A stretch of DNA of 64,000 nt from Vibrio sinaloensis. Lineage in GTDB: Bacteria; Pseudomonadota; Gammaproteobacteria; Enterobacterales; Vibrionaceae. Position numbers and translations under genes: made by a program. Numbering within the stretch: the stretch's first letter is position 1; each line of letters opens with the position of its first letter. Location: assembly GCF_000808535.1 (NCBI RefSeq), contig NZ_JWLV01000009.1, positions 62,001 to 126,000 of the forward strand. Reading direction: 5' to 3'. Shown piece by piece: positions 10,738-26,623 of this stretch. The notes under the pieces are model-generated. The model worked only from the letters and a program-made list of their open reading frames with translations. It did not search any database and was not told the DNA's origin.

Positions 10738-12603
10738 ATGACTCTTGATATTTCAAAGTACCCAACACTGGCACTGGCTGATACGCCAGATGAGTTACGC
10801 AGCCTTCCGAAAGAAGTGCTGCCTAAGCTGTGTGATGAGTTACGTACTTACCTTTTAAACTCAGTTAGCCAATCTAGTGGTCACCTTGCCTCAGGCTTAG
10901 GTACGGTCGAACTGACCGTTGCACTTCACTACGTCTACAACACGCCGTTTGACCAATTAGTGTGGGACGTCGGCCACCAAGCCTACCCACATAAAATTTT
11001 GACTGGACGTCGCGATCAAATGCCGACCATTCGTCAGAAAGACGGTTTACACCCTTTCCCATGGCGAGAAGAAAGTGAATACGACACCTTGTCTGTTGGT
11101 CACTCCTCTACCTCGATCAGTGCCGCGCTAGGCATGGCGATCAGTGCCGGTAAAGAGGACAAGAATCGTAAAGTTGTCAGCGTGATTGGTGATGGCGCCA
11201 TCACCGCGGGTATGGCCTTCGAGGCAATGAACCACGCAGGTGATGTCCACCCTGATATGCTGGTGATTCTCAACGACAATGAAATGTCCATTTCAGAAAA
11301 CGTTGGAGCACTGAATAATCACTTAGCACAAGTCCTTTCCGGTAGCCTTTATACCTCGATTCGTGAAGGCGGCAAAAAAGTACTGTCGGGCGTTCCACCA
11401 ATCAAAGAGTTGGTGCGCCGCACAGAAGAGCACTTGAAAGGCATGGTTGTTCCAGGGACGCTTTTTGAAGAACTTGGCTTTAACTACATAGGCCCAGTTG
11501 ATGGCCATGACGTGAACGAGCTGGTCAAAACTCTCAAGAATATGCGAGAGCTTAAAGGCCCACAGTTCCTACACATCATGACGAAAAAGGGTAAAGGGTA
11601 CGAGCCGGCTGAGAAAGATCCAATCGGTTATCATGGCGTGCCTAAGTTCGACCCTAGCCACAACTCACTGCCAAAAAGCAGCGGCGGAAAGCCAAGTTTC
11701 TCCAAGATTTTTGGTGATTTCCTATGTGACATGGCTGCGCAAGATCCTAAGCTTATGGCAATCACGCCAGCCATGCGTGAAGGCTCTGGCATGGTACGCT
11801 TTTCGAAAGAGTATCCAGACCAATACTTTGATGTGGCGATTGCAGAGCAACATGCTGTGACGCTAGCTACGGGTATGGCGATTGCTGGTGATAACCCTAT
11901 CGTCGCGATTTATTCAACGTTCCTTCAGCGTGGTTATGACCAGTTAATCCACGATGTTGCCATCATGGACCTTCCTGTGATGTTTGCCATTGACCGTGCT
12001 GGTTTGGTGGGCGCCGATGGTCAAACTCACCAAGGCGCGTTCGATCTTAGCTTCATGCGCTGCATACCAAATATGGTGATCATGGCACCTAGCGATGAGA
12101 ATGAATGTCGCCAAATGCTCTACACTGGCCATAAGCACACTGGCCCTTCAGCAGTGCGCTATCCTCGTGGTACAGGTATGGGAGCCGAGATAAAACAAGA
12201 ATTTACCGCACTAGAGATTGGTAAAGGACGCCTGATTCGCCAAGGTGAAAAAGTCGCGATATTGAGCTTTGGTACATTCTTGGCTAATGCGCTAGAAGCC
12301 GCTGAGAAATTGAACGCGACTGTGGCGGACATGCGATTTGTAAAACCTCTCGACGAAGCACTCATTAAACAACTGGCGGATGAGCACGACGTAATTGTTA
12401 CGCTCGAAGAGAATGCGATTTCTGGTGGCGCAGGTGCGGGTGTCGTTGAGTTCATGATGAAAGAGAAAATCATCAAGCCCGTCTTAAACCTTGGCTTACC
12501 GGACAAATTCATTGCTCAAGGCACTCAAGATGAGCTCCATGAAGAGCTCGGCTTAGACGCCAAGGGCATAGAAAAATCGGTCCTAGAGTACCTCGCTAAA
12601 TAA
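10738..12603 (+). CDS. dxs: 1-deoxy-D-xylulose-5-phosphate synthase
   Basis: A 621-residue thiamine diphosphate enzyme joining pyruvate and glyceraldehyde 3-phosphate, the first step of the MEP isoprenoid pathway. Visible landmarks: the TPP/Mg motif [18 protein letters not shown], the transketolase pyrimidine-domain motif [15 protein letters not shown], and [18 protein letters not shown]. Length matches E. coli Dxs (620). It ends the xseB-ispA-dxs operon, followed by a strong terminator. The ribosome site before ATG 10738 is weak, possibly relying on translational coupling. Confidence 0.97.
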
Positions 12604-12623
12604 GCAAGGCTCTCTCAAATCTA

Positions 12624-12656
12624 AAAGCCCTCACACTGCTGTGAGGGCTTTTTTGT
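12624..12656. terminator. Terminator between dxs and truC
   Basis: Stem AAAGCCCTCAC/GTGAGGGCTTT with loop ACTGCT and T-tract; it is usable by dxs and, in reverse, by truC. Confidence 0.88.
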
Positions 12657-13379
12657 CTAGTTCGGCATCTGCCAATCAAACTCCTGACACAGCGCTTGCC
12701 AGGTCTCGTCCACACTCGCTTTAATGAGCAGTTTCTCATTGGTGAAGGGGTGAACAAACTCTAGACTTGACGCGTGAAGCAGTAATCGGTGCGAGTCATA
12801 CACGTCTCTAAATAACTTATTGTGTTTTCCATCACCGTGAGTGGTGTCTCCAACAATAGGGTGCCTTAGATGGGCCATGTGCCGCCTAAGCTGGTGTTTT
12901 CGTCCTGTCAGTGGCTTCATCTCCATCAGACAATAACGAGTCGTTGGGAATTTACCTGTCGAGTGAGGAACCTCGACTTTGGCAAGAGGCCAATAGTCCG
13001 TAATCGCTTCTTGCGCTTCATTGTCTTGGCTCGCGTGTTTGTCGGCAATCTTATCCAGCTCCACTTTCAGTGCATAATCCAACCGCCCAGACTCTTCTAT
13101 CCAACCGCGCACGATTGCATGATAGGTTTTCTCCATCTCATGGTTGGCAAACATCGGCATCACCTGTGAAGCAACTTCACTGGATAAAGCAAAAATCAGC
13201 ACACCCGAAGTCGGCCTATCTAAGCGATGAAGTGGAAATACATGCTGACCAATTTGGTCACGTAGGGTTTGCATGACGAATTGTGTTTCATGCTTATCTA
13301 GCCAACTGCGATGGACGAGCATCCCCGCGGGCTTATTGACGGCAACAAAGTAGTCGTCTTGATAAATAATCTCGAGCAT
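12657..13379 (-). CDS. truC: tRNA pseudouridine(65) synthase TruC
   Basis: A 240-residue RluA-family pseudouridine synthase. TruC modifies U65 in several tRNAs. The catalytic aspartate lies in FPLHRLDRPTSGVL and the second conserved region is KPLTGRKHQLRRHMAHL. The N-terminus MLEIIYQDDYFVAVNKP and the rest align well with E. coli TruC, although that protein has a longer C-terminal tail. The start is set at ATG 13379, which overlaps the yqcC stop as TAATG; a GTG nine bases upstream is a less likely start. Confidence 0.93.
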   Translation of the reverse strand: MLEIIYQDDYFVAVNKPAGMLVHRSWLDKHETQFVMQTLRDQIGQHVFPLHRLDRPTSGVLIFALSSEVASQVMPMFANHEMEKTYHAIVRGWIEESGRLDYALKVELDKIADKHASQDNEAQEAITDYWPLAKVEVPHSTGKFPTTRYCLMEMKPLTGRKHQLRRHMAHLRHPIVGDTTHGDGKHNKLFRDVYDSHRLLLHASSLEFVHPFTNEKLLIKASVDETWQALCQEFDWQMPN

Positions 13380-13693
13380 TATCTGCACACCTCATCAATG
13401 GAAACCAATAAACTGAGCACCGGTGCGTACTCTGGGCAAGATTTCCAGCTCTCCTCAAAGTAAGGGGAAATCGAAAAGCCCGTCGGCAAAGGCATTTTTT
13501 GCTCGACTAGAGCCCTCATTTTAGGAAGGAAAACCCATTGCAACCATTGCTCTGGCTTCAAAGTATCGACAGAAAAAGGCTCATTACTTGACAGCTCTTC
13601 CGTTGATGGGGCGTCTTGCTGCCACAGCCCCAATTGGCGCATAACTAAAGGAAGTTGCTGTAAAAGAGGTAACAATTGTTGTGCTTTTGTCAT
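13379..13693 (-). CDS. yqcC: YqcC family protein (DUF446)
   Basis: A 104-residue protein of unknown function. The conserved features of the family, a leading helix and FSVDTLKPEQWLQWVFLPKM, are clear. Its stop overlaps the truC start, the same gene pair found in E. coli (yqcC-truC). Probably a soluble cytoplasmic protein; the association with a tRNA modification gene is positional only. Confidence 0.88.
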   Translation of the reverse strand: MTKAQQLLPLLQQLPLVMRQLGLWQQDAPSTEELSSNEPFSVDTLKPEQWLQWVFLPKMRALVEQKMPLPTGFSISPYFEESWKSCPEYAPVLSLLVSIDEVCR

Positions 13694-13769
13694 AAACCGT
13701 TCGTGTTGGCCTTGAAAAATGCTGTAAGGGTACCATTTATAGTAGAAATAAAGTTAGGACTATTCTCTA

Positions 13770-14807
13770 ATGGAAACCATTCATACTCTGACCCAACTTC
13801 TCACCAACAGTCACTGTCAGTATCAAGTTTATGATCTCGGCCGTCGTATCCGCCATATTGACAGCAAAGTATTTGCTGATGTCGAGCAAGGCTCAATGCC
13901 CTATCCATTTCCAATGCAACGCAAGGCTCACCTTGCCATCGCTTACTGGAATGAGCAAAAACAGCCTTGGATTTGGTTTCTAAAGTTCGAACTGGATGAG
14001 CGCGGTCTATTTAAGCAAGCGGATATTGGCAACTTCCTCAAATACGTTATCGAAGCAATGGGTACTCGCATTAGCCAAGATATGAGCGAAGAGCAACAAC
14101 AAAAACTGTCGAACAATCCGTATACTTTCAAGCCATCTGAAGACAAAATGGCGGTTTTCCACAGCCAAATTCGCGCCCAGCTGGATTTACCGTGTAGCCA
14201 ATATTACGAACACGCACAGCACTACTTTGCTGGAGGCTTAGGGTGGGATAAGTGGCAAACTGTTGGTCTGCAAGGTGTCACAGATATGTGTGCTCGATTG
14301 GGACAAGAACAAAATGGGGTGAATATTCGCAAAGCGTTAAAACACCTTCCCAATGAGCCTCTCTATGCCCTGCTCGGCGCGCTCGAACATAGCACATTAC
14401 CGACCAAACTGGCCCATCGGCTTGCTGAACTGGCGATGGATCAAATCAACAGTAACGACCCCGATATCTTTTTACTAGGCGCATTAAGTCGAGCACTCTC
14501 TGGCGCGGAAGATAGTATCGCTACGCCAATTTTACAACAGATACTGAGCTCCCCTCGCCTAAGTCATCAAGAGGTCCTCATTGGCATCGCAGGACGAAGC
14601 TGGCACCTATTAGCAGATAGCGACATCGCAGAATCTTACTTGCTGCGCTTGGCTCAAACAGGCAATCAAACCTTGTTCAATCAGTTATTTGCAGATTTGG
14701 TCATGCTACCGGAGCTTCGCATGGTATTGCTACCCCTGCTTCACTCTAGTCCTTCAGAAGAACTCGCAAAAGCGCTTCTTTCATTGCAACAAGCTGCGCG
14801 AGGGTAA
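13770..14807 (+). CDS. DUF3549 family protein
   Basis: A 345-residue protein without signal peptide or membrane segments, belonging to a family found mainly in Vibrio, Shewanella and relatives (DUF3549). Function is not known. The N-terminal part (VYDLGRRIRHIDSKVF, then a WIWFLKFELDERG strand region) is followed by a mostly helical C-terminal half with Leu/Ala-rich repeats resembling HEAT-like packing, seen only from composition. It begins a two-gene group with the DUF3301 gene three bases downstream. Confidence 0.85.
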   Translation: METIHTLTQLLTNSHCQYQVYDLGRRIRHIDSKVFADVEQGSMPYPFPMQRKAHLAIAYWNEQKQPWIWFLKFELDERGLFKQADIGNFLKYVIEAMGTRISQDMSEEQQQKLSNNPYTFKPSEDKMAVFHSQIRAQLDLPCSQYYEHAQHYFAGGLGWDKWQTVGLQGVTDMCARLGQEQNGVNIRKALKHLPNEPLYALLGALEHSTLPTKLAHRLAELAMDQINSNDPDIFLLGALSRALSGAEDSIATPILQQILSSPRLSHQEVLIGIAGRSWHLLADSDIAESYLLRLAQTGNQTLFNQLFADLVMLPELRMVLLPLLHSSPSEELAKALLSLQQAARG

Positions 14808-14810
14808 CCT

Positions 14811-15110
14811 ATGATCGGAGACCTCCTTGCTATTCTCACCCTTGCTATTGTCTGCTTTGCCTTTTGGCAGCAACGACGTCAGGCCGAACTGGCAAAAATG
14901 ATCGCAGCAAGAAAGTGCGAGCAGATGGAGTTGCAACTGATCAGTGTGGCGTTAAAAGGCCATAAACTAAAAACGCCAGAGGGTATCTGGCGTTGGCATT
15001 CTATCTATCAGTTTGAGTTTTCATCTTTAGGTGATGACTGCTACCAAGGCTCTCTTGTTATGCAGGGATTCCACTTAACCAAGATTGACCTTCCACCGCA
15101 TCGGATGTGA
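14811..15110 (+). CDS. DUF3301 family small membrane-anchored protein
   Basis: A 99-residue protein with one N-terminal hydrophobic segment (about residues 3-19) followed by basic WQQRRQ and a soluble tail with IWRWHSIYQFEFSS, the family signature. It is probably inner membrane anchored with the tail in the cytoplasm. Function is unknown. Its start is three bases from the stop of the DUF3549 gene. Its last 53 bases overlap the 3' end of the convergent acetyltransferase gene. Confidence 0.83.
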   Translation: MIGDLLAILTLAIVCFAFWQQRRQAELAKMIAARKCEQMELQLISVALKGHKLKTPEGIWRWHSIYQFEFSSLGDDCYQGSLVMQGFHLTKIDLPPHRM

Positions 15111-15576
15111 AAACAAACTCGTCATAAGGGCCGAATGTATCACGCTTATGTGCAGAGAACTGAAAGCCCAATTTTGTCAGCAGCTTGATAGAAGCATGAT
15201 GCTCGACATTGGAGGTTGCAGATACCTGAGTCAGGTTTAAATCTCTGACTGCTTTAGGAAAAAAAGCAGCCAGTACTTCGGTCGCAATTCCCTTCCCCCA
15301 AAATGCTTTATCGAACAAATAGCCAAGCTCAGGTTTGTTGTCTAAATCACTGATGAATACATGTCCCATGTACTCGCGAGTGTGGCTATCTAATACCGCT
15401 CTGGCGTAGATATTGGGATCATGCATTACTCGTTCAAACAACTGCTTTGCAGACGACACGGTATGAGGCCCATTCATCTGAGCACGGTTTTTGGCGCAGC
15501 AATTAAGCAATAAGAAGTCTGATTGTAACGACTCGTTATAGGGGACCAATAACGAACGGCGAGTCACTATTGTCAT
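15058..15576 (-). CDS. GNAT family N-acetyltransferase (RimJ/RimL-like)
   Basis: A 172-residue acetyltransferase of the RimJ/RimL/SpeG-like branch. It contains LGYLFDKAFWGKGIATEVLAAF, which includes the acetyl-CoA pyrophosphate-binding loop (GKGIATEV), and the later conserved NVEHHASIKLLTKLGF. The acetyl acceptor is unknown. The 3' end overlaps the convergent DUF3301 gene by 53 bases, and no separate terminator is visible between them. Confidence 0.87.
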   Translation of the reverse strand: MTIVTRRSLLVPYNESLQSDFLLLNCCAKNRAQMNGPHTVSSAKQLFERVMHDPNIYARAVLDSHTREYMGHVFISDLDNKPELGYLFDKAFWGKGIATEVLAAFFPKAVRDLNLTQVSATSNVEHHASIKLLTKLGFQFSAHKRDTFGPYDEFVFTSDAVEGQSWLSGIPA

Positions 15577-15759
15577 AAGACATCCTTGTAAACAGCGTGC
15601 TGTCTATTGTTTTAATCATCACCATAGAGAACTCACATCACTAAAATGATAAACGCGAGCTATGGTAGAAAACAAAGCCGAAAAGTTATACCAACTGGAC
15701 AAATATATTATTGATCTAGGTTGTTTTTTGGTCGAAGTGATAAAGAAAAAGAGTATTAA

Positions 15760-15790
15760 GAAAAGCCCCGACACTCACGTATCGGGGCTA
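15760..15790 (-). terminator. Terminator of the CsrB-family RNA
   Basis: Stem AGCCCCGA/TCGGGGCT around a 10-base loop; read leftward it is followed by TTTTC. Confidence 0.85.
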
Positions 15791-16185
15791 TAGTCTTACT
15801 CGCAGCAGTCCGGCTACAAAAGTTGCTCCATGCATCTTCCATAATAGTTGCTGATTCCATCAGCAATTTCCATTCATCGCCGTCCTAGCGGTGTCCTAAT
15901 CATCCTGAAAGCCAACATTCCCCGTTAGCGCACTTCACTTGTTCCTTGAGCGGTGTCCTTGGTATCGTCCTGATACAGTCCTTCCTCTTCCAAAAGGCGT
16001 CCATCTCAATCCTTTGTCACCGATTTCCTATCGATGAACGTATCCATACAGCGTCCTTCGCATCCTGCCGATCGACTTCCTAGTCAATCAAATCTTCTTC
16101 CTGAAGATAACCGCATCCTTGGTTATTCCTATTCCCTGTCAGTATCCTTCCGACACCTTCCAATTTACTCCAACCACTGATTTAA
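15760..16185 (-). ncRNA. csrB: CsrB-family regulatory RNA (CsrA-sequestering)
   Basis: A gene-free stretch whose leftward strand carries about 30 GGA triplets in under 400 bases, many displayed in hairpin loops: TTGCTGA-TGGAA-TCAGCAA (about 15847-15866), GTATC-AGGAC-GATAC (15962-15976), ATCTTC-AGGAA-GAAGAT (about 16092-16108) and GACT-AGGA-AGTC (about 16075-16085). This is the defining architecture of CsrB/CsrC RNAs, which titrate CsrA. It ends at a GC-rich terminator. The 5' end is not fixed by the sequence and is placed just before the first GGA cluster. Vibrios have several such paralogues, so the letter B is by family only. Confidence 0.9.
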
Positions 16186-16301
16186 ACAATGGAGTAATGG
16201 TCATCTTTTTCTGTAACAATTGTTATACAACTCATCATTTAAATACAAATCAGATACTTAAGCTAAAATCATAAGAAAACTCTGCGTATCATTTCTGCTT
16301 G

Positions 16302-16331
16302 TCTTACATCATTTGTAAGAGATCTCGCACG
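16302..16331. promoter_or_regulatory. VarA/UvrY (GacA)-type box upstream of the CsrB-family RNA
   Basis: TGTAAGAGATCTCGCACG at 16314-16331 matches the E. coli UvrY site TGTAAG-N6-CTTACA perfectly in its left half and spacer, but its right half is degenerate. Immediately left, TCTTACA-N5-TGTAAGA (16302-16320) forms a perfect inverted repeat sharing the TGTAAG arm. It lies roughly 120-140 bases upstream of the RNA, like the GacA boxes of other csrB genes. Confidence 0.65.
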
Positions 16332-16408
16332 CGCGGTTGCCAAAATTTCCATTCGCCAAATGTGGGGGGCCGCAGTAATATGAAGCCAACGATAGAAATG
16401 GAGGTAGT

Positions 16409-16690
16409 ATGCTCACACAAAACGTAAGCCAAGAGCTCAAAGATGTATTAGAACAACTGCATCAAGAGGGAAAAGAGCCGACCGTTGCGCTAGTCAAGGC
16501 GCGCCTAACAACCTCAGTCCCTATGCCAGCCCTGATCACAACGCTCAAAAGTTGGAAGAGCTCCAAACGAGTACCAAAAGTTGAAGTGGCAGCCGCTCCG
16601 AAGACTGAGCAGGATCGCATCAGTGAGTTGGAACAACAGGTCGCCGATCTGACTAAACGAATTGCGCAACTAGAATCAAAGTTCAATTAA
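16409..16690 (+). CDS. Small KfrA-like DNA-binding/coiled-coil protein
   Basis: A 93-residue protein with two parts. Residues 1-50 resemble the winged-helix N-terminal domain of KfrA-type proteins (GKEPTVALVKARL...MPALITTLKSWK). Residues 63-92 form a heptad-patterned coiled coil (ISELEQQVADLTKRIAQLE). The linker is Ala/Pro/Lys rich. Such proteins bind DNA as dimers, but no function is recognised for this one. The ribosome site GGAGG is ideal, 5 bases before ATG. It diverges from the CsrB-family RNA, sharing the upstream region with the VarA-like box. Confidence 0.75.
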   Translation: MLTQNVSQELKDVLEQLHQEGKEPTVALVKARLTTSVPMPALITTLKSWKSSKRVPKVEVAAAPKTEQDRISELEQQVADLTKRIAQLESKFN

Positions 16691-16893
16691 TCGATGTCGG
16701 CTTCGCTATTGAAGCTGACATTCACGATATCTCAAATTCGAAATGCAATTCACCGCATATGCATCAATTATTTGCGATTCAGGTCATTGTTTAGCGTCAC
16801 ATCTGATAATAAAATCCACACTTAACTTATTAATTGCATTACTGTTTCCTAAATCTGTGATGCCTAACTTTGTGCGAAAAAGTGTGTATCAAG

Positions 16894-17946
16894 ATGATGC
16901 GATGCGGTCATGAAATTAATCAAACATCAATCCCCCATTATTTCATTCGGTTGAAACCCTTGTTTCTCCTATTTTCGCTGTGTCTGTCATTGGTGACTTC
17001 GGCAGTCGCAAGCGATGACAACTTTAAGCCAGTTGTATTGTTCCAAGGTGAGGTTCAGCCTGGTTCATACCTGCAGCTGATCGAGCAAGGCGTGGCAAGG
17101 TTCGAGCAAAACACTGGGATTTTGGTTAAGCGAATTCATTTAAAACCCAATAATGAGAAATATTTAGCTGAACTCGAGCAGGCCGCCAAGGACGGATTGA
17201 GTCCAATCATCGTCCAAGAATCGAACATCATCACAACCTTTCCTGATGTGGCCCTGCGTTATCCGTCTACACGGTTTATTTCGCTCGATGTCGCCTATCA
17301 CGTACCCAATATCCTCGGCCTTACTTTCAGCCATGCGGAAGGAGCCTATGTCATTGGCTACCTAGCCGGTCGTAAGACTGAAAGCAATAAGCTTGGTTTT
17401 GTCGGTGGTGTGGATGTTGATGTCATCAATCAGTTTCGCTGCGGCTTTGAACTCGGTGCTCAAGATGCCAACCCGCTAGCAACGGTTGATGCGCAATATA
17501 TAAACAAAGGCGCATTCTCTTGGGAAGATACTCAAGGGGCTGAGACCATCACTCAATCCTTGTTAGACCAGGGAGTTGACGTAATCTTCCCTGTGGCGGG
17601 GTTCGCAAGTTTAAGTGTGGTTGAAACCATTAAAAACAGTGGCCACGGCTTTAGTTTCGGGGTTGATTACGACTACTCTCAACGCTACCCAGAAACAACC
17701 CTAGCGTCGATGGAGAAGAAGGTGGACCTAGCCGTTTACGCCGCTCTAATGCAACTCAAAAATGGTATTTGGAATGGAAACCAGAAAAAATTTGGCGTGA
17801 AACAGGACGTTATCTCTATCTCGTTAAATCAAGACAATCCAAACTTAAGCGAAGACGACAAGCAAGCGGTTAAGAACATCTTGCTCGATCTCAAAGGAAA
17901 AAGCAGCGTCATCTCTCAACGAATTGACCAGCGCTGTGCCAGCTAA
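16894..17946 (+). CDS. Periplasmic BMP/PnrA-like binding protein, likely sensor partner
   Basis: About 350 residues with an N-terminal hydrophobic segment (KPLFLLFSLCLSLVTSAVAS) that fits a signal peptide after a long n-region. The mature part is a type I periplasmic-binding fold of the Bmp/PnrA family: GLTFSHAEGAYVIGYLAG, KLGFVGGVDVDVINQFRCGF, GVDVIFPVAG and MEKKVDLAVYAAL are typical. PnrA relatives bind purine nucleosides for ABC importers, but no permease or ATPase gene is nearby. Instead the next gene, two bases downstream, is a membrane GGDEF protein, so a ligand-sensing role is inferred. The start is uncertain: ATG 16894 or 16897 are chosen over an upstream TTG at 16870; no strong ribosome site is visible. 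Confidence 0.82.
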   Translation: MMRCGHEINQTSIPHYFIRLKPLFLLFSLCLSLVTSAVASDDNFKPVVLFQGEVQPGSYLQLIEQGVARFEQNTGILVKRIHLKPNNEKYLAELEQAAKDGLSPIIVQESNIITTFPDVALRYPSTRFISLDVAYHVPNILGLTFSHAEGAYVIGYLAGRKTESNKLGFVGGVDVDVINQFRCGFELGAQDANPLATVDAQYINKGAFSWEDTQGAETITQSLLDQGVDVIFPVAGFASLSVVETIKNSGHGFSFGVDYDYSQRYPETTLASMEKKVDLAVYAALMQLKNGIWNGNQKKFGVKQDVISISLNQDNPNLSEDDKQAVKNILLDLKGKSSVISQRIDQRCAS

Positions 17947-17948
17947 AG

Positions 17949-19445
17949 ATGAAAAATCTATACTCTTACGTCATTAAGAACTATTTATTGCTGACCACCA
18001 TCCCATTCTTCATTTTCGGCGGGTTGGATATCGCAAACGATATCTACTTCACCCACAATGTGGAGAATGCACAATATCAGCGGGTTATCGCTCAACAACA
18101 AACCGATTCAAAACGGGCACTACTAAACTTCGACTTACTGGAAGCCGAGCTCGTCGCAACGCGTATTTCTCAGCTCGATTACATCGTCTCAGTTACGCTC
18201 GACTCCTATCAATACGGGATGAAAATGGCGGAGATTATCAACTCCAACTCAACCAGAGGTGTCCCTCTTTACTACCCTATATTTGATGATCAACGTCAAC
18301 AGATCGGCCAGCTCATCGTCGTCAAAGATTATTCAGCCTATTACACTCAAGTAATCTATAATGTGCTTCCTAGGGCTATCGGCTTTTTAGTTATCTTATG
18401 CGCTATCTCACTGCTGTTTAGCCGAATACTCACTTCTGCACTCAAAAAACCATTTTTAGACTTACAGCGGTTCGCCCTGCAGATCGCAAGTGGTGACTAC
18501 CAAACACCTTCGAAAACCGACTCCAGCTTTGTTGAGATCACCAATATATTCCGCGCGTTAGAGACGATGCGTGCAAAGTTAAAAGAATCAATCAGCAAGC
18601 TAACATTGAGCGAAGAACGTTATTCACGCACCTATAATTTGACCCAAGTCTGCTTGTTCGTTGTCAACGTAAAGCATGGAAAGATCGTACGTTCAAACCA
18701 AAAGTTCAATCAGGTACTCGAGCGAATCCCTCAATCAGTCAGGCAATCAGCACTTCAGCACTTCATTGATGAACTGCTTACCTGCGCCTCTACCGAGAGC
18801 TTTCGACATTCACTCGACGTGGGTGGTAAACAACGATACTTTCAAATCAACCGAAGTGATATCTACAACCATGAAATTGAGTGCTCAGCGCTCGACATCA
18901 CCGAACTGGTGACCGCAAAGCAGACTTTGGAGTCGCAGCTGGTTACAGATGTACTTACGCAAGTACCTAATCGCTATCGTTTTAATCAATTAATCTGGCG
19001 AGTGAACAACGGTGAGCTAAATACGGTCACGGTTCTAATGATTGACCTGAATGGCTTTAAGCAGATTAATGATACTTACGGACACGCCGCTGGTGACCAT
19101 CTGCTGGTAGAAATCGCCAAGCGCATAAAGCAACAACTTAAGCTGTCGACTCAAACGGTATATAGACTTGGAGGTGATGAGTTCGTCGTAACCGTCCACG
19201 ATTCAATCACAAGAGATGAAGTACAAGATCTCGCCATGAGAATCCAAGCAGTGTGCAGCCAGCCCGTTCAGTACATAAACAAAAGCTTTAGCGTTAGCCT
19301 AAGTATTGGTGTCGAAAGTTTTAACAGCGACATTCATCTCGACTTAGAGCGTTGCCTAAATAATGCCGACGCCGCAATGTATTTAGCAAAAACGAGCAAA
19401 ACAGGTATTGTTTACGCCAGTGAACACCCTGAAAACTCCTTTTAG
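17949..19445 (+). CDS. Membrane diguanylate cyclase (HAMP-PAS-like-GGDEF)
   Basis: A 498-residue signalling protein. Transmembrane helices at about 8-25 and 141-163 bracket a periplasmic loop of about 110 residues. HAMP-like sequence follows (about 164-218), then a PAS-like region (about 222-320) and a GGDEF domain (about 330-490). The active-site motif RLGGDEF is intact at 407-412, as are the substrate-binding [15 protein letters not shown] residues, so it should make cyclic di-GMP. The inhibitory RxxD site expected nine residues before GGDEF is absent (LSTQ). No EAL domain. It starts two bases after the BMP protein gene, so the two form a unit. Confidence 0.9.
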
Positions 19446-19464
19446 AAGTCAGAGTCGACGATCA

Positions 19465-19495
19465 AAAAAGGCTTGGTCAGACCAAGCCTTTGTTT
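19465..19495. terminator. Bidirectional terminator between the GGDEF gene and sucD
   Basis: Stem AAAGGCTTGGT/ACCAAGCCTTT with a 3-base loop; A- and T-tracts flank it so it can end both the GGDEF transcript and the suc operon. Confidence 0.88.
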
Positions 19496-19509
19496 ACTAA
19501 TAGGTTTGA

Positions 19510-20382
19510 TTACCAACCTGTGATTTCACGTAGACCTTTACCGATGTCCGCTAGAGACTTCACGGTCTTAACGCCTGCTGCTTCTAGAGCTGAAAACTTG
19601 TCTTCCGCTGTACCTTTACCACCAGAGATGATTGCACCAGCGTGGCCCATACGTTTACCTGGAGGAGCAGTCACACCTGCAATGTAAGAAACCACTGGCT
19701 TGGTGACGTTCTCTTTAATGAACGCTGCGGCTTCTTCTTCCGCTGTACCACCGATTTCGCCAATCATTACGATTGCTTCTGTTTCAGGGTCTTCTTGGAA
19801 TAACTTCAGGATGTCGATGAAGTTTGAACCAGGGATTGGGTCACCACCAATACCAACACAAGTAGACTGACCGAAACCTTCGTCTGTCGTCTGCTTAACT
19901 GCTTCATACGTTAGCGTACCTGAGCGTGAAACGATACCCACTTTACCTTTCTTGTGGATATGACCAGGCATGATACCAATCTTACACTCGTCTGGAGTGA
20001 TTAGACCCGGACAGTTAGGACCGATCATGCGAACGCCAGTCTCTTCTAGCTTAACTTTCACATCGATCATGTCTGTTGTAGGGATACCTTCCGTGATTGT
20101 TACGATAAGCTCAATGCCTGCATCAATCGCTTCTAGGATTGCATCTTTACAGAAAGGTGCTGGTACGTAGATTACCGTCGCTGTTGCGCCAGTTGCTTCA
20201 ACAGCTTCACGTACTGTGTTGAATACAGGTAGACCTAGGTGCGTTTGACCGCCTTTACCTGGAGAAACACCACCTACCATTTGCGTACCGTATGCGATAG
20301 CTTGCTCAGAGTGGAAAGTACCTTGACCACCAGTGAAACCCTGACAGATTACTTTCGTGTCTTTGTTAATTAGTACAGACAT
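19510..20382 (-). CDS. sucD: Succinyl-CoA synthetase alpha subunit
   Basis: A 290-residue subunit that binds CoA and carries the phosphohistidine. The N-terminal Rossmann domain has [16 protein letters not shown]; the ligase domain contains [14 protein letters not shown] with the active-site histidine. With SucC it converts succinyl-CoA to succinate with nucleotide phosphorylation. Its start overlaps the sucC stop as TAATG, and it closes the sdh-suc cluster just before a terminator. Confidence 0.97.
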
Positions 20383-21548
20383 TATTTGCCCTCCGCAGCA
20401 GCAACAACTTTCTGAGCTGCGTCAGTTAGTGACTCAGCTGCAATGATATCAACATCAGAATTAGCAAGAACTTCGCGACCTAGGTCTGCGTTAGTACCTT
20501 CTAGACGAACAACGACTGGTACGCTTACGCCTACCTCTTTAACCGCACCGATGATACCTTCAGCGATCATGTCACAACGCACGATACCACCGAAGATGTT
20601 GACGAGTACTGCTTTTACATTGTCATCAGATAGGATGATCTTGAATGCTTCAGCTACACGCTCTTTGGTTGCGCCGCCACCTACATCTAGGAAGTTAGCT
20701 GGCTTGCCGCCGTGTAGGTTTACGATATCCATCGTACCCATTGCTAGGCCAGCACCGTTAACCATACAGCCAACATTTCCGTCTAGTGCTACGTAGTTCA
20801 GCTCCCACTGAGCTGCGTGCGCTTCACGCTCATCTTCTTGCGAAGGATCGTGCATTTCACGTAGCTTAGGCTGACGGTACATCGCGTTAGAGTCGATGTT
20901 GATCTTACCGTCAAGACAAAGAAGGTTGCCTTCACCAGTAATAACAAGAGGGTTGATCTCTAGTAGAGCAAGATCGTACTGAGAGAACATGTTGCCAAGA
21001 CCCATGAAGATCTTCACAAATTGTTTGATTTGGTCGCCTTCAAGACCTAATTTGAACGCAAGTTTACGGCCTTGGTAAGCTTGAGGGCCGACTAGTGGAT
21101 CGATAGCTGCTTTGTGAATCAACTCTGGAGTTTCTTCTGCAACTTTCTCGATTTCTACACCACCTTCAGTAGAAGCCATGAATACAACTTTACGCGTAGC
21201 ACGGTCAACAACAGCACCTAGGTAAAGTTCGTTCGCAATGTTTGACGCTTCTTCAACTAGGATTTTTGTTACAGGCTGGCCGTTTGCATCTGTTTGGTAA
21301 GTCACTAGATTTTTACCTAGCCACTTCTGTGCGAACTCTTTCACGCCGTCTTTAGTGTCGTGTAGCTCTACGCCACCCGCTTTACCACGTCCACCAGCGT
21401 GAACCTGACATTTAACGACTTTTTTCTCTGTAGAGATACGACCCGCCGCTTCAAAAGCTTCTTGAGGTGTATCACACGCGTAACCTTCCGGTACAGGCAA
21501 ACCGAATTCTGCAAACAGCTGTTTGGCTTGGTATTCATGCAAATTCAT
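20382..21548 (-). CDS. sucC: Succinyl-CoA synthetase beta subunit
   Basis: A 388-residue ATP-grasp subunit, the same length as E. coli Suc[21 protein letters not shown] begins the ATP-grasp domain, the [11 protein letters not shown] nucleotide loop follows, and the C-terminal domain contains [16 protein letters not shown]. It provides nucleotide and succinate binding. It is separated from sucB by about 200 bases that hold two stem-loops, and is coupled to sucD. Confidence 0.97.
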
Positions 21549-21672
21549 TTTGATATTCCGTTTATTTTCCCTTAAGGGATTATTATTTCCATAACGCCGC
21601 TATGTTGCGGGCGTCTGTAGGGTCTTCTCAAATAAATCACTAATTATTTCAACAACAAATAGTGACTCAAGT

Positions 21673-21703
21673 GAAGGCCAGACGCTGAGCCAGTCTAGCC
21701 TTT
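21673..21703. repeat. Stem-loop in the sucB-sucC spacer (first)
   Basis: An imperfect inverted repeat AAGGC-C-AGAC ... GTCT-A-GCCTT with a nine-base loop. There is no clear T-tract in the leftward direction, so it is more likely a processing or stability element than a terminator. Confidence 0.5.
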
Positions 21704-21712
21704 GAAACTATC

Positions 21713-21747
21713 GAACGTCTAGTTACCAACGGCAACTAGACGTTTTA
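21713..21747. repeat. Stem-loop in the sucB-sucC spacer (second)
   Basis: A perfect 11-bp inverted repeat AACGTCTAGTT/AACTAGACGTT around ACCAACGGC, immediately downstream of sucB in the leftward transcript. There is no leftward T-tract. It could stabilise the upstream mRNA or cause partial termination. Confidence 0.65.
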
Positions 21748-21753
21748 GCGATA

Positions 21754-22962
21754 TTAAACGTCTAATAGCAGACGTGCTGGATCTTCTAGTAGCTCTTTAA
21801 TGGTTACTAAGAAGCCCACTGACTCACGGCCATCGATTAGACGGTGGTCGTAAGATAACGCTAGGTACATCATAGGTAGAATTTCTACTTTGCCATCAAC
21901 TGCCATAGGACGTTCTTGGATCTTGTGCATGCCAAGAATTGCAGATTGCGGCGGGTTGATGATTGGCGTAGACATAAGTGAACCAAATACACCACCATTA
22001 GTGATAGTGAAGTTACCACCCATGAGTTCATCAACCGTTAGCTTGCCGTCACGTCCTTTGATTGCTAGCTCTTTGATGCCTTTCTCTACGTCAGCAAAAC
22101 CTAGTGTGTCGCAGTCTTTCAGTACTGGCGTTACTAGACCACGTGGCGTAGATACTGCCATGCTGATGTCGAAGTAGTTGTGGTAAACAATATCATCACC
22201 GTCGATAGACGCGTTCACTTCTGGGTAGCGTTTTAGTGCTTCCGTTACCGCTTTCACGTAGAAAGACATAAAGCCTAGACGAATACCGTGACGCTCTTCG
22301 AACTGGTCTTTGTACTGCTTACGAAGGTCCATGATTGGCTTCATATTCACTTCGTTAAACGTCGTTAGCATTGCCGTGTTGTTCTTCGCTTCTAGAAGAC
22401 GGTTTGCAACAGTCTTACGTAGGCGAGTCATTGGTACACGTTTTTGGCTACGAGCTGCTGCTGGAGCTTCTACTGCCGCAGGAGCTTCTGCTTTAGGCGC
22501 CGCTTTTGCATTCGCTATGTGAGCTTCAATATCTTCACGAGTAATACGACCACCCACACCAGTGCCTTTCACTTGGCTAGCTTCTAGGCTATGTTCAGCT
22601 AGAAGACGGCGAACCGCTGGGCTTAACGCATCGTTGCTTTCTTCAGTTAGAGACGCTTTGTGGCGCTTATCTGGAGACGCTTCTGTTGATTCAGTTGTGT
22701 CCGTCGTAGGCTCGCCGGCAACTGCACCTGGTTTAAGCTTAGCGATTAGCTGCTTAGAAAGTACTGTCGCGCCTTCTTCCTCGATGATTGCTTCAAGTAC
22801 GCCCGCTTCTGGAGCTGGTACTTCAAGTACAACTTTGTCTGTTTCGATATCAACCAGAACTTCATCACGCTCTACCGTGTCGCCTGGTTGTTTGTGCCAT
22901 GTCGCTACCGTAGCGTCAGCGACAGATTCAGGTAAATCTGGAACCAGAATTTCAATTGTCAT
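21754..22962 (-). CDS. sucB: 2-oxoglutarate dehydrogenase E2, dihydrolipoyl succinyltransferase
   Basis: A 402-residue E2 core protein. Order: one lipoyl domain (1-76) with the lipoylated lysine in ETDKVVLEV, an acidic/Ser/Thr linker, the peripheral subunit-binding domain (about 112-147: [21 protein letters not shown]), an Ala/Pro-rich linker ([18 protein letters not shown]), and the catalytic domain ending with [16 protein letters not shown]. It transfers succinyl groups from lipoate to CoA. It lies 28 bases downstream of sucA. Confidence 0.97.
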
Positions 22963-22990
22963 ATCGGTTTCTTCCTTTAACTTCTAGTTC

Positions 22991-25816
22991 TTAGTCCGAA
23001 GTTTTTGTATTCACGTTTAGTGCGTCTTCAACTAACGCTTTCTGTTGTTTCAAGTGTACTGACATGTAACCTACTGCAGGTGATGCTGATGCTGGACGAC
23101 CAGCGTATTTAAGATCTGCACCTGCTGGAATGGCAGCACGGAAGTTATGTTGGCTACAGTACCAAGCACCCTGGTTTTGAGGCTCTTCTTGACACCATAC
23201 AAAGTCTTCTACATTGGTGTACTGTTCGATCGCCGCTTTCACTTCATCCATCGGGAATGGGTATAGCTGCTCAATACGAACAATTGCCACATCGTCTTGC
23301 TCATTATTGCGACGCTGTTCTAGTAGATCGAAGTAAACCTTACCTGAACAGAACACAACACGTTTCACTTTCGATGCGTCCAAGCTGTCGATTTCTGGAA
23401 TCGCTGGTTGGAATGTACCTTCCGCCAGCTCCTCTAATGTCGACGTACACAGTGGGTGACGAAGCAGTGACTTAGGTGACATAACAACCAGTGGTCGACG
23501 CATTGGGCGAACAACCTGGCGGCGAATCATGTGGTAAACCTGAGCCGGAGTTGATGGTACAACAACCTGCATGTTTTGCTCAGCACACAACTGAAGGTAG
23601 CGCTCTAAACGTGCGGATGAGTGCTCAGGACCTTGACCTTCATAACCGTGAGGGAGCAACATCGTTAGACCACATAGACGTGCCCACTTCTGCTCACCAG
23701 ACGAGATGAATTGGTCAATCACCACCTGTGCACCGTTGGCAAAATCACCAAATTGCGCTTCCCAAATGGTTAAACCGCCCGGCTCAGCCGTTGCGTAACC
23801 ATACTCGAATGCGAGAACCGCTTCTTCAGACAATACAGAGTCAAAAACTTGGAAAGGACCTTGTTTGTCATGGATATTTGCCAGTGGAATGTAAGTACTT
23901 GCATCATTCTGGTTGTGAAGTACAGAGTGGCGATGGAAGAATGTACCACGCCCAGAATCCTGACCCGAGATACGAATACGCTTGCCATCGTCGACAAGTG
24001 TCGCATACGCCAACGTTTCAGCCATACCCCAGTCAATCGCTTTTTCACCACTAACCATCGCTTTGCGATCATTGTAGAGCTTGTTAACTCGACTTTGCAG
24101 CTTGTGACTCTCTGGGTAGTTACACAAGCGTTGACCAAGCTCAACTAAGCGGGTTGTATCAAACTTGCTGTTCCACTCTACGTCCCAGTCATGCCCTAAG
24201 TATGGAGACCAGTCAACCGAATGCAGAGCCATCGGACGCCACTCTTTAACCACGACTTCACCATGATCAAGGGCATCACGATACTCGTTGACAAGTTGAG
24301 TAGCGGTATCGATACCGAGAACACCTTTTTCCATCAGCACATCAGCGTATAGCTTGCGTGGTGTTGGGTGCTTCTTAATCTTCTGGTACATCAGAGGCTG
24401 AGTCGCATTAGGCTCATCCGCTTCATTGTGGCCGTGACGGCGATAACATACCAGATCGATCACAACATCACGCTTGAACTCATTTCGGTAATCCAGCGCG
24501 ATACGAGTAACAAAAGCAACCGCCTCTGGATCATCGGCATTCACGTGGAAAATCGGTGCCTGTACCATCTTAGCGATGTCAGTACAGTACATGGTCGATC
24601 GGGTGTCATTAGGATTGGAGGTTGTGAAACCAACTTGGTTGTTCACAACGATACGCACAGTACCACCAACACAGAAACCACGCGCTTGCGACATATTGAA
24701 TGTCTCTTGCACAACCCCTTGACCCGCTATTGCAGAGTCACCGTGAATGGTAATTGGTAGAACTGTACTGCCTGTCGTGTCGCCTAAACGGTCTTGGCGT
24801 GCACGAACTGAACCAATAACTACTGGGTTTACAATTTCAAGGTGAGACGGGTTAAACGCTAACGCTAAGTGAACATCACCACCTGGCGTTGCGAAATCCG
24901 CAGAGAAACCTTGGTGATACTTAACGTCACCCGTACCCCACGTTTCATCGTGCTTACCAGCAAACTCGTCGAATAGGTCTTGTGGTTTCTTGCCCAACAC
25001 GTTAACCAACATGTTCAGGCGTCCACGGTGAGCCATACCGATAACCACTTCGCGCATTCCACTCGCACCCGCGTGACGAATCAACTCTTTCGTCATCGGA
25101 ATCAGCGCATCACCGCCTTCTAATGAGAATCGCTTCGCACCCGGAAATTTTGCACCTAGGTAACGTTCTAGGCCTTCAGCTGCTGTCAGCTCATCTAGGA
25201 AGGTTTGCTTTTCTTCATTAGTAAAAGAAGGCTGACCAACTACAGACTCTAAACGTTGCTGGATCCAACGCTTCTGCTCTGTGTCTGTCATGTGCATGTA
25301 CTCTGCACCAATAGAACCACAGTAGGTTTTTTTAAGAGCTGAATAGATATCTTTCAACGGCATGGTCTCTTGGCCAACGGCAAAAGAACCTACGTTGAAA
25401 GTTTCTTCGAGGTCATCTTCGGTAAGATTGTGGAATGCTGGGTCAAGCTCCGCCACAGGTGGGCGTTGCCATAAACCAAGAGGGTCAAGCTGTGCCGCTT
25501 CGTGTCCTCGGAATCGGTAAGCATTGATTAATTGGAGTACTTTTACTTGTTTAGCGTCGACATCTGGATCACTAACCTGGACACTGTAATGCTTTGTTTC
25601 TTGAGCGAGTCGTCGGAAGTAGTCACGGACACGCGAATGTGGTTGTTCAACCACTTCTTCTGATGGCTTAGGTAAACCATCAAATACGCGTTTCCACTCC
25701 TCACTTACCAGATCGGGGTCACTTAGATACAGTTCGTAGAGGTCCTCTACATACGTTGCATTGGCGCCAGCCAAGTGTGAAGACTCGAGCCATGCCTTCA
25801 TCACGCCGTTGTGCAT
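22991..25816 (-). CDS. sucA: 2-oxoglutarate dehydrogenase E1 component
   Basis: A 941-residue thiamine diphosphate-dependent decarboxylase, close to the E. coli length of 933. The N-terminus MHNGVMKAWLESSHLAGANA matches the E2-binding start of the family and supports ATG 25816. Visible landmarks: GMAHRGRLNMLVNVLGK, GDVKYHQGFSAD, NADDPEAV, the GHNEADEP motif and HGYEGQGPEHSSARLERYLQ. It forms the entry enzyme of the complex with SucB and a separately encoded E3 (lpd), which is not in this window. It follows sdhB after about 100 bases that contain a stem-loop. Confidence 0.97.
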   Translation of the reverse strand: MHNGVMKAWLESSHLAGANATYVEDLYELYLSDPDLVSEEWKRVFDGLPKPSEEVVEQPHSRVRDYFRRLAQETKHYSVQVSDPDVDAKQVKVLQLINAYRFRGHEAAQLDPLGLWQRPPVAELDPAFHNLTEDDLEETFNVGSFAVGQETMPLKDIYSALKKTYCGSIGAEYMHMTDTEQKRWIQQRLESVVGQPSFTNEEKQTFLDELTAAEGLERYLGAKFPGAKRFSLEGGDALIPMTKELIRHAGASGMREVVIGMAHRGRLNMLVNVLGKKPQDLFDEFAGKHDETWGTGDVKYHQGFSADFATPGGDVHLALAFNPSHLEIVNPVVIGSVRARQDRLGDTTGSTVLPITIHGDSAIAGQGVVQETFNMSQARGFCVGGTVRIVVNNQVGFTTSNPNDTRSTMYCTDIAKMVQAPIFHVNADDPEAVAFVTRIALDYRNEFKRDVVIDLVCYRRHGHNEADEPNATQPLMYQKIKKHPTPRKLYADVLMEKGVLGIDTATQLVNEYRDALDHGEVVVKEWRPMALHSVDWSPYLGHDWDVEWNSKFDTTRLVELGQRLCNYPESHKLQSRVNKLYNDRKAMVSGEKAIDWGMAETLAYATLVDDGKRIRISGQDSGRGTFFHRHSVLHNQNDASTYIPLANIHDKQGPFQVFDSVLSEEAVLAFEYGYATAEPGGLTIWEAQFGDFANGAQVVIDQFISSGEQKWARLCGLTMLLPHGYEGQGPEHSSARLERYLQLCAEQNMQVVVPSTPAQVYHMIRRQVVRPMRRPLVVMSPKSLLRHPLCTSTLEELAEGTFQPAIPEIDSLDASKVKRVVFCSGKVYFDLLEQRRNNEQDDVAIVRIEQLYPFPMDEVKAAIEQYTNVEDFVWCQEEPQNQGAWYCSQHNFRAAIPAGADLKYAGRPASASPAVGYMSVHLKQQKALVEDALNVNTKTSD

Positions 25817-25874
25817 ATTTTCCCTTAACCAGTAGTTTTCACGTTTGCTTCGGTCTTATGCCGAGCTATTAAGA

Positions 25875-25896
25875 GCCGACCCGTTGGTGGGTCGGC
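25875..25896. repeat. Stem-loop in the sdhB-sucA spacer
   Basis: A perfect 8-bp GC-rich stem GCCGACCC/GGGTCGGC with loop GTTGGT. Read leftward it is followed by TCTTAAT rather than a T-run, so termination would be inefficient; it may set different sdh and suc mRNA levels. Confidence 0.6.
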
Positions 25897-25912
25897 AATT
25901 TTTGTTGTTAAA

Positions 25913-26623
25913 TTAGACGGAGCGGTTTACCAGCATTGTCTTGATGTGGCCAATAGCTTTCGTCGGATTTAGCCCCTTAGGACAAACACTTACACAATTC
26001 ATGATGCCGTGGCAACGGAAAACGCTAAATGCGTCATCAAGATTTGACAAACGTTCATCTGTCGCGGTATCTCGGCTATCAATTAGCCAACGATACGCTG
26101 CAAGTAGACCCGCAGGGCCGATAAATTTGTCCGGGTTCCACCAGAAAGATGGGCAAGATGTTGTACAACATGCACACATGATACATTCATACAATCCATC
26201 TAAGTGAGCACGCTCATCTGGTGTTTGTAGATTCTCTCGTGAAGGTGGCAACGCACCATCATCCATCAAGAATGGCTTAACTTTCGCATAGTTATCATAG
26301 AACTGTGTCATGTCAACGATAAGATCACGCACAACAGGTAAGCCTGGTAGTGGACGAATCACTATCTTGTCTGCTTTTAGTGCAGAGAGTGGCGTGATAC
26401 ACGCTAGGCCATTTTTACCATTCATGTTCAAACCATCTGAACCACATACACCTTCACGGCAAGAGCGACGGAATGAAATGCTCGGATCTTGCTCTTTAAG
26501 CAGAATCAAAGCATCCAATAGCATCATGTCCGAACCTTCTTCTACCTCAAGCGTGTAGTCTTTCATGTAAGGCTTTTGGTCGACATCCGGATTGTAGCGG
26601 TACAAAGAGAAATTCAGTTTCAT
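25913..26623 (-). CDS. sdhB: Succinate dehydrogenase iron-sulfur subunit
   Basis: A 236-residue subunit with three cluster motifs: 2Fe-2S in SCREGVCGSDGLNMNG...C, 4Fe-4S in CIMCACCTTSCPS, and 3Fe-4S in CHGIMNCVSVCPKGLNP. It passes electrons from the SdhA flavin to ubiquinone at the membrane. It is preceded by sdhA at 18 bases and the ribosome site AAAGGAGG is strong. Confidence 0.97.
   Translation of the reverse strand: MKLNFSLYRYNPDVDQKPYMKDYTLEVEEGSDMMLLDALILLKEQDPSISFRRSCREGVCGSDGLNMNGKNGLACITPLSALKADKIVIRPLPGLPVVRDLIVDMTQFYDNYAKVKPFLMDDGALPPSRENLQTPDERAHLDGLYECIMCACCTTSCPSFWWNPDKFIGPAGLLAAYRWLIDSRDTATDERLSNLDDAFSVFRCHGIMNCVSVCPKGLNPTKAIGHIKTMLVNRSV

Follow-up and report, generated by a model that had tools for sequence, protein, structure and literature searches.

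Many diguanylate cyclases have no known input, and a periplasmic binding protein encoded next to a membrane cyclase offers a testable one. Does a BMP/PnrA-family binding protein whose gene directly precedes that of a GGDEF protein still serve import, or does it inform the cyclase? We addressed this question for a locus of Vibrio sinaloensis, starting from a window (the whole stretch of DNA analysed) of 64,000 nucleotides. The explanation that we consider probable, drawn from sequence comparison, is a translationally coupled co-sensor, in which the periplasmic domain of the cyclase would read the occupancy of the BMP protein, probably by a nucleoside-like ligand.

Gene layout and domain anatomy

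The two genes are:

16870..17946, + strand: BMP/PnrA-family periplasmic binding protein, 358 aa, TTG start (ORF list, Pfam, fold match)
17949..19445, + strand: membrane diguanylate cyclase, 498 aa, ATG start (ORF list, Pfam, structure model)

The original prediction had described a binding-protein gene that ends two bases before a GGDEF gene, with no ABC permease or ATPase genes around. This layout is confirmed: the gap between the BMP stop and the cyclase start is 2 bases, and no ABC genes were seen when the ORF list was read by eye for window positions 12000-26000. The BMP start codon is uncertain (translation could equally well begin at the TTG at 16870 or at an in-frame ATG, at 16894 or 16897), because either ATG would likewise give a signal peptide. 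Read by eye, the N-terminus looks like a signal peptide and shows no lipobox. On the 5' side the pair is preceded by a small gene and by what we take, from the sequences, to be an acetyltransferase-like gene; on the 3' side, on the opposite strand, lie what are presumably succinyl-CoA synthetase genes. A promoter/terminator scan of the locus found less than in shuffled sequence (3 sites against a mean of 5.3, and 1 against 2.9). An inverted repeat near 19469-19490 is visible by eye and is absent from the output of that scan.

Within the cyclase, GGDEF is the only domain above its Pfam cut-off (residues 333-484, E = 1.9e-35, 122.4 bits against a cut-off of 23.8), and no EAL domain is present. 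A structure model (pLDDT 78.5) gives the order membrane helix 1, periplasmic domain, membrane helix 2, HAMP-like stretch, PAS-like domain, GGDEF; the periplasmic domain forms a block at 85-91, and the HAMP-like stretch is of low confidence. The features are:

18045..18362, + strand: periplasmic domain, residues 33-138, modelled as helix, helix, four strands
18429..18584, + strand: HAMP-like stretch, residues 161-212 (Pfam HAMP 15.5 bits, below the cut-off of 25)
18642..18902, + strand: PAS-like domain, residues 232-318 (structure model; 5xgb alignment)
19170..19184, + strand: GGDEF signature motif, intact, with no RxxD upstream

These features bear out most of what had been predicted for the cyclase. 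The stretch between the membrane helices measures ~106 residues (boundaries from sequence and model), close to the short loop of about 110 residues that had been proposed, and it gave no match above cut-off to a Pfam sensor family in 9 cyclase sequences. Structure searches for relatives of its fold listed GGDEF and PAS matches of the other domains. An intact GGDEF site without the RxxD inhibitory site was likewise foreseen, and RxxD is missing in all 24 family cyclases checked (the window copy and 23 others). The HAMP and PAS-like region placed in between held up in part: the PAS-like element is seen in the model, with which the PAS-GGDEF structure 5xgb aligns over residues 232-498, but HAMP is only a weak match below cut-off, so we call that stretch HAMP-like.

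Recurrence of the pair

When profiles of the cyclase N-terminus were run against sets of genomes, 20 loci of the family were found in 15 of 329 Vibrionaceae genomes and 5 loci in 5 of 129 Shewanella genomes, so the BMP-cyclase module is rare. The genus-level search gave 13 of 227 genomes, the order-level search (247 genomes) only two already known genomes and one weak, unrelated GGDEF/EAL match, and the class-level search (274 genomes) the source genome only; a wider contig scan gave 7 cyclase loci, two of them in Shewanella. A BMP gene lies directly upstream of the cyclase at 17 of the 20 Vibrionaceae loci and at 5 of 5 in Shewanella, that is at 22 of 25 overall (a set that includes a second genome of V. 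sinaloensis). The adjacency thus recurs in vibrios, and we rejected a random neighbourhood of the two genes. In all 20 intact pairs the spacing, as called, falls between -4 and +17 (-4 in ten, -1 in four, +2 in four, +5 in one and +17 in one), and because of this narrow range translational coupling is suggested. The gene neighbourhoods of the pair differ between groups. In two genomes, G240 (L071:2612-4113) and G198 (L072:2589-3785), the linked cyclase carries an in-frame stop and the BMP frame is open, which reflects either gene decay or a sequencing error.

The ligand pocket and cyclases without a BMP

The Pfam Bmp family (PF02608) matches the binding protein over residues 55-336 (E = 1.7e-48, 165.6 bits against a gathering score of 24.1). 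Its structure model is of middling confidence (pLDDT 71), and the best fold matches are nucleoside-bound PnrA, BmpD and Lbp, with TM-scores of about 0.55-0.6. Riboflavin-bound RfuA is also among the fold matches, and a flavin-like ligand may be possible on the strength of that model. Published descriptions of BmpA and PnrA (PMC13325309, PMC7093131) place the base in a sandwich of two Phe, with the ribose contacted by Asp98, Asp225 and Lys242 in BmpA numbering; the edge of the base involves Asp27 of PnrA, or Asp19 and Asn28 of BmpD. The equivalents of the aromatic and ribose-contacting residues in our protein are:

17068..17070, + strand: Tyr67, aromatic, equivalent of PnrA Phe36/BmpA Phe27 (Y or F in 21 of 21 pair-linked BMPs)
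17287..17289, + strand: Asp140, equivalent of ribose-contacting BmpA Asp98 (21 of 21 pair-linked BMPs)
17521..17523, + strand: Trp218, aromatic, equivalent of PnrA Phe186/BmpA Phe176 (W in 21 of 21 alignment rows)
17665..17667, + strand: Asp266, equivalent of ribose-contacting BmpA Asp225 (21 of 21 pair-linked BMPs)
17716..17718, + strand: Lys283, equivalent of ribose-contacting BmpA Lys242 (21 of 21 pair-linked BMPs)

Both the ribose triad and the aromatic sandwich of nucleoside-binding BMPs are therefore retained in every pair-linked BMP of the alignment. At the base edge, the residues equivalent to PnrA Asp27 and Asn37 are replaced in all 21, by Q/P/K/M/I and L/I/S/Q. We assigned the equivalence of this loop from gap-free alignments to Lbp and TmpC, and the position of Asn37 from the motif DxxGKFDKSFN, which all 21 ABC-linked BMPs in the nearest group carry. 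In this part of the alignment the ABC-linked Vibrio sequences are shifted by one residue, so that columns 67/68 do not correspond; the difference between pair-linked and ABC-linked proteins (21 of each; ABC-linked group D, 9 rows, was left out) is therefore fairly measured by the motif count. Because the sugar-contacting and aromatic residues are kept and the base-edge Asp/Asn are replaced, the ligand is likely nucleoside-like, with a base preference probably unlike that of PnrA. The protein thus resembles PnrA/TmpC, BmpA, BmpD and Lbp in family, fold, ribose triad and aromatic sandwich, but differs from them in its base contacts and in having no ABC partner found in the source genome. Of the PnrA-like nucleoside binding originally proposed, the ribose and aromatic part stands; the base-contacting part does not, so purine-nucleoside binding is not transferable from PnrA, and a plain PnrA-like purine receptor was rejected. 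The pocket would still narrow the search for a ligand to nucleoside-like compounds. As a separate observation, all 42 aligned BMPs, cyclase-linked and ABC-linked, have Cys191 (17440-17442) and Cys356 (17935-17937), which perhaps form a conserved disulfide.

The replaced base contacts also raise the question of whether the pocket is a relic. The BMP protein could be a constitutive periplasmic partner, an inhibitor or stabiliser in the manner of YfiR, which regulates the cyclase but is not a small-molecule receptor. YfiR is not a BMP-fold protein. The best NCBIfam match of the GGDEF part is DgcN/YfiN (over residues 319-481 only, 154.9 bits, below the cut-off of 325). YfiBNR sets a precedent: there a periplasmic protein reportedly controls the membrane GGDEF protein, sequestering or releasing it. 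We consider this reading unlikely, as a relic would not need the ribose triad and the aromatic pair, both of which are kept in 21 of 21 BMPs across strongly diverged sequences.

Cyclases that stand alone bear on this point too. Three family cyclases, in genomes G060, G195 and G126, have no upstream BMP; whole-genome searches gave no Bmp match in G195 or G126 and one in G060, in its A pair. In G195 and G126 the solitary cyclase occupies the place of the second pair of the source genome. Among 19 paired cyclases, 10 loop positions are invariant; 8 of these are kept in G060, 4 in G195 and 1 in G126 (only 29 residues of its loop region are left). Of 37 GGDEF invariants the three keep 37, 34 and 35, respectively. 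G195 has diverged in its membrane and HAMP-like segments as well. Loop divergence in all three was rejected, since the G060 loop is not unusual: it is 25-31% similar to A-type cyclases, against 22-31% for paired B-types, and the claim of loop decay is thus limited to the two genomes without a Bmp match. In these few cases, decay of the loop beside an intact catalytic domain fits the direction predicted for a loop that reads the BMP protein, and they may be natural examples of a sensor loop lost after its partner. Since cyclases without a BMP keep an intact catalytic domain, the BMP protein is unnecessary for retention of the cyclase; kept catalytic residues would equally be expected if a constitutive partner had restrained them.

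Transport or sensing

If the co-sensor reading is correct, the BMP protein should have no importer of its own. The source assembly (50 contigs, rated 100% complete) holds two Bmp matches in a profile search. The second Bmp gene, on a different contig, has a one-base overlap with the gene of a paralogous cyclase; this second BMP-cyclase pair is at L003:4399-6938 (contig C34). To its 5' side lie what we take to be a CDP-alcohol transferase-like gene and an ABC operon that encodes a binding protein of its own, and to its 3' side presumably Tad-pilus-like genes. As a caveat, the second pair thus adjoins an ABC operon, but that operon has its own binding protein. Only two BPD_transp_2 permease matches were found in the genome, neither in a BMP operon; we take one of the two operons to be ribose-type and the other to carry another kind of binding protein. 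As both permeases sit in other operons, searches with Bmp and BPD_transp_2 revealed no BMP-type importer for either BMP, and a cognate BMP ABC operon elsewhere in the genome was sought and not found. Unlike a Pnr-type ABC importer, then, the BMP gene has no ABC ATPase or permease genes with it, either among the ORFs nearby or in the permease search of the genome. Together with the linkage of the two genes, this supports sensing rather than transport, as had been predicted.

A protein without a dedicated importer could still lend its substrate to another ABC transporter in trans, the cyclase gene being merely co-transcribed. A BMP match at 1e-10 occurs in 59 of 196 genomes of the genus, and all 14 matches above 200 bits are cyclase-linked. 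BMP proteins are otherwise an import family, and among the 66 lower-scoring Vibrio matches 30 of 30 inspected by eye lie near ABC-type genes. However, the two BPD_transp_2 permeases of the source genome are accompanied by binding proteins of their own, alongside no more than two Bmp matches. Moreover, two Shewanella genomes carry a separate Bmp gene with an ATPase-type gene downstream in both stretches, so that a transport BMP coexists there with the cyclase-linked one. We therefore regard import in trans as very unlikely. Least probable of all is that the two proteins share an operon and its expression but act independently. Coupled spacing alone shows only co-expression, in keeping with that reading, but the linkage holds at 22 of 25 loci, in two paralogous pairs and in several neighbourhoods, and the loop decays where no Bmp is found.

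A proposed co-sensor model, its precedents and the history of the pair

Under the co-sensor model, the BMP protein would be secreted into the periplasm and bind a small ligand there, most likely a nucleoside or nucleoside-like compound whose base is read differently from that of PnrA. In one of its two states, open or closed, it would dock on the cyclase's small domain in the periplasm. From there the contact would be relayed along membrane helix 2 and the HAMP-like and PAS-like segments to the GGDEF domain, which has no product-inhibition site, and would set its activity; the BMP protein would import nothing. Docking, the nucleoside-like ligand and the control of c-di-GMP by occupancy are what we infer here. 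As to the sign of the output, we lean by analogy with NspS-MbaA towards activation by the liganded form.

NspS-MbaA is the closest precedent and is reportedly a polyamine co-sensor of V. cholerae, the subject, by its title, of Cockerell 2014. NspS is a polyamine-type binding protein of another family and does not have the BMP fold. In one account (PMC8967002), a periplasmic binding protein serves a membrane c-di-GMP enzyme and senses without transport, and MbaA has both GGDEF and EAL. The adjacency of a binding-protein gene and a membrane GGDEF gene is shared with our loci, whereas the cyclase here has only GGDEF. The suggestion of an NspS-MbaA-like logic with a different binding fold is accordingly upheld for gene adjacency and the BMP fold. 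What seems new is the BMP fold in a binding-protein/cyclase pair; the co-sensor logic is known. We found no published BMP-cyclase pair in a literature search that reached few subscription papers.

Dependence of a membrane sensor on a BMP-family protein has a parallel in Bacillus subtilis, where, to go by the title of Banse 2011, the membrane sensor KinD is said to require Med. The comK-activator structure 2hqb, presumably of a Med relative, matches both the BMP profile and our model. That system differs in having a histidine kinase as the partner and in Med being a lipoprotein; our pair has a cyclase, and no lipobox is seen. XylFII and LuxP likewise serve membrane sensors. Both have type I periplasmic binding folds, and XylFII-LytSN and LuxP are among the fold matches of the BMP model, but the match is weaker than to BMP proteins, the ligands are sugars or an autoinducer, and the partners of XylFII-LytS and LuxP-LuxQ are kinases. 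More generally, contact with receptors is known for 13 of 22 families of binding proteins (PMC9602780). If the co-sensor reading is true, the BMP fold joins the binding proteins that signal through c-di-GMP, and through the pair extracellular nucleosides, such as those from DNA breakdown, could be tied to a switch of lifestyle in marine bacteria.

Finally, we compared the histories of the two proteins. In a tree of 51 BMPs (L016 and L045, with broken BMP frames, were left out), the 21 cyclase-linked proteins fall on one side of a branch, yet its support is modest (63/82), and we did not accept a single origin. The cyclase alignment and tree omit the broken G240 and G198 cyclases, whose BMPs are absent from the comparison of 19 pairs, and the trees and residue counts exclude the G944 pair, which was found later. 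Over these 19 pairs, the BMP and cyclase trees agree on most groups. The correlation between the two sets of distances is 0.91, a value that none of 2000 permutations reached (0.94 when A is taken together with Shewanella, 0.88 for A by itself). One Vibrio pair, that of G060, groups with the Shewanella pairs in both trees, which fits movement as a unit. Linkage and tree agreement amount to co-inheritance, not contact. More tentatively, a branch of BMPs might have left transport to become dedicated nucleoside-like receptors that set c-di-GMP, with two paralogous versions in vibrios that moved between Vibrio and Shewanella as a unit, each perhaps with a ligand of its own, recognised by a base-reading loop that has been rebuilt. 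Apart from these, a further Vibrio BMP group (L037-L046) lies near ABC permease or ATPase genes and in several genomes adjoins what we take to be xanthine-dehydrogenase-like genes; it is perhaps a purine importer.
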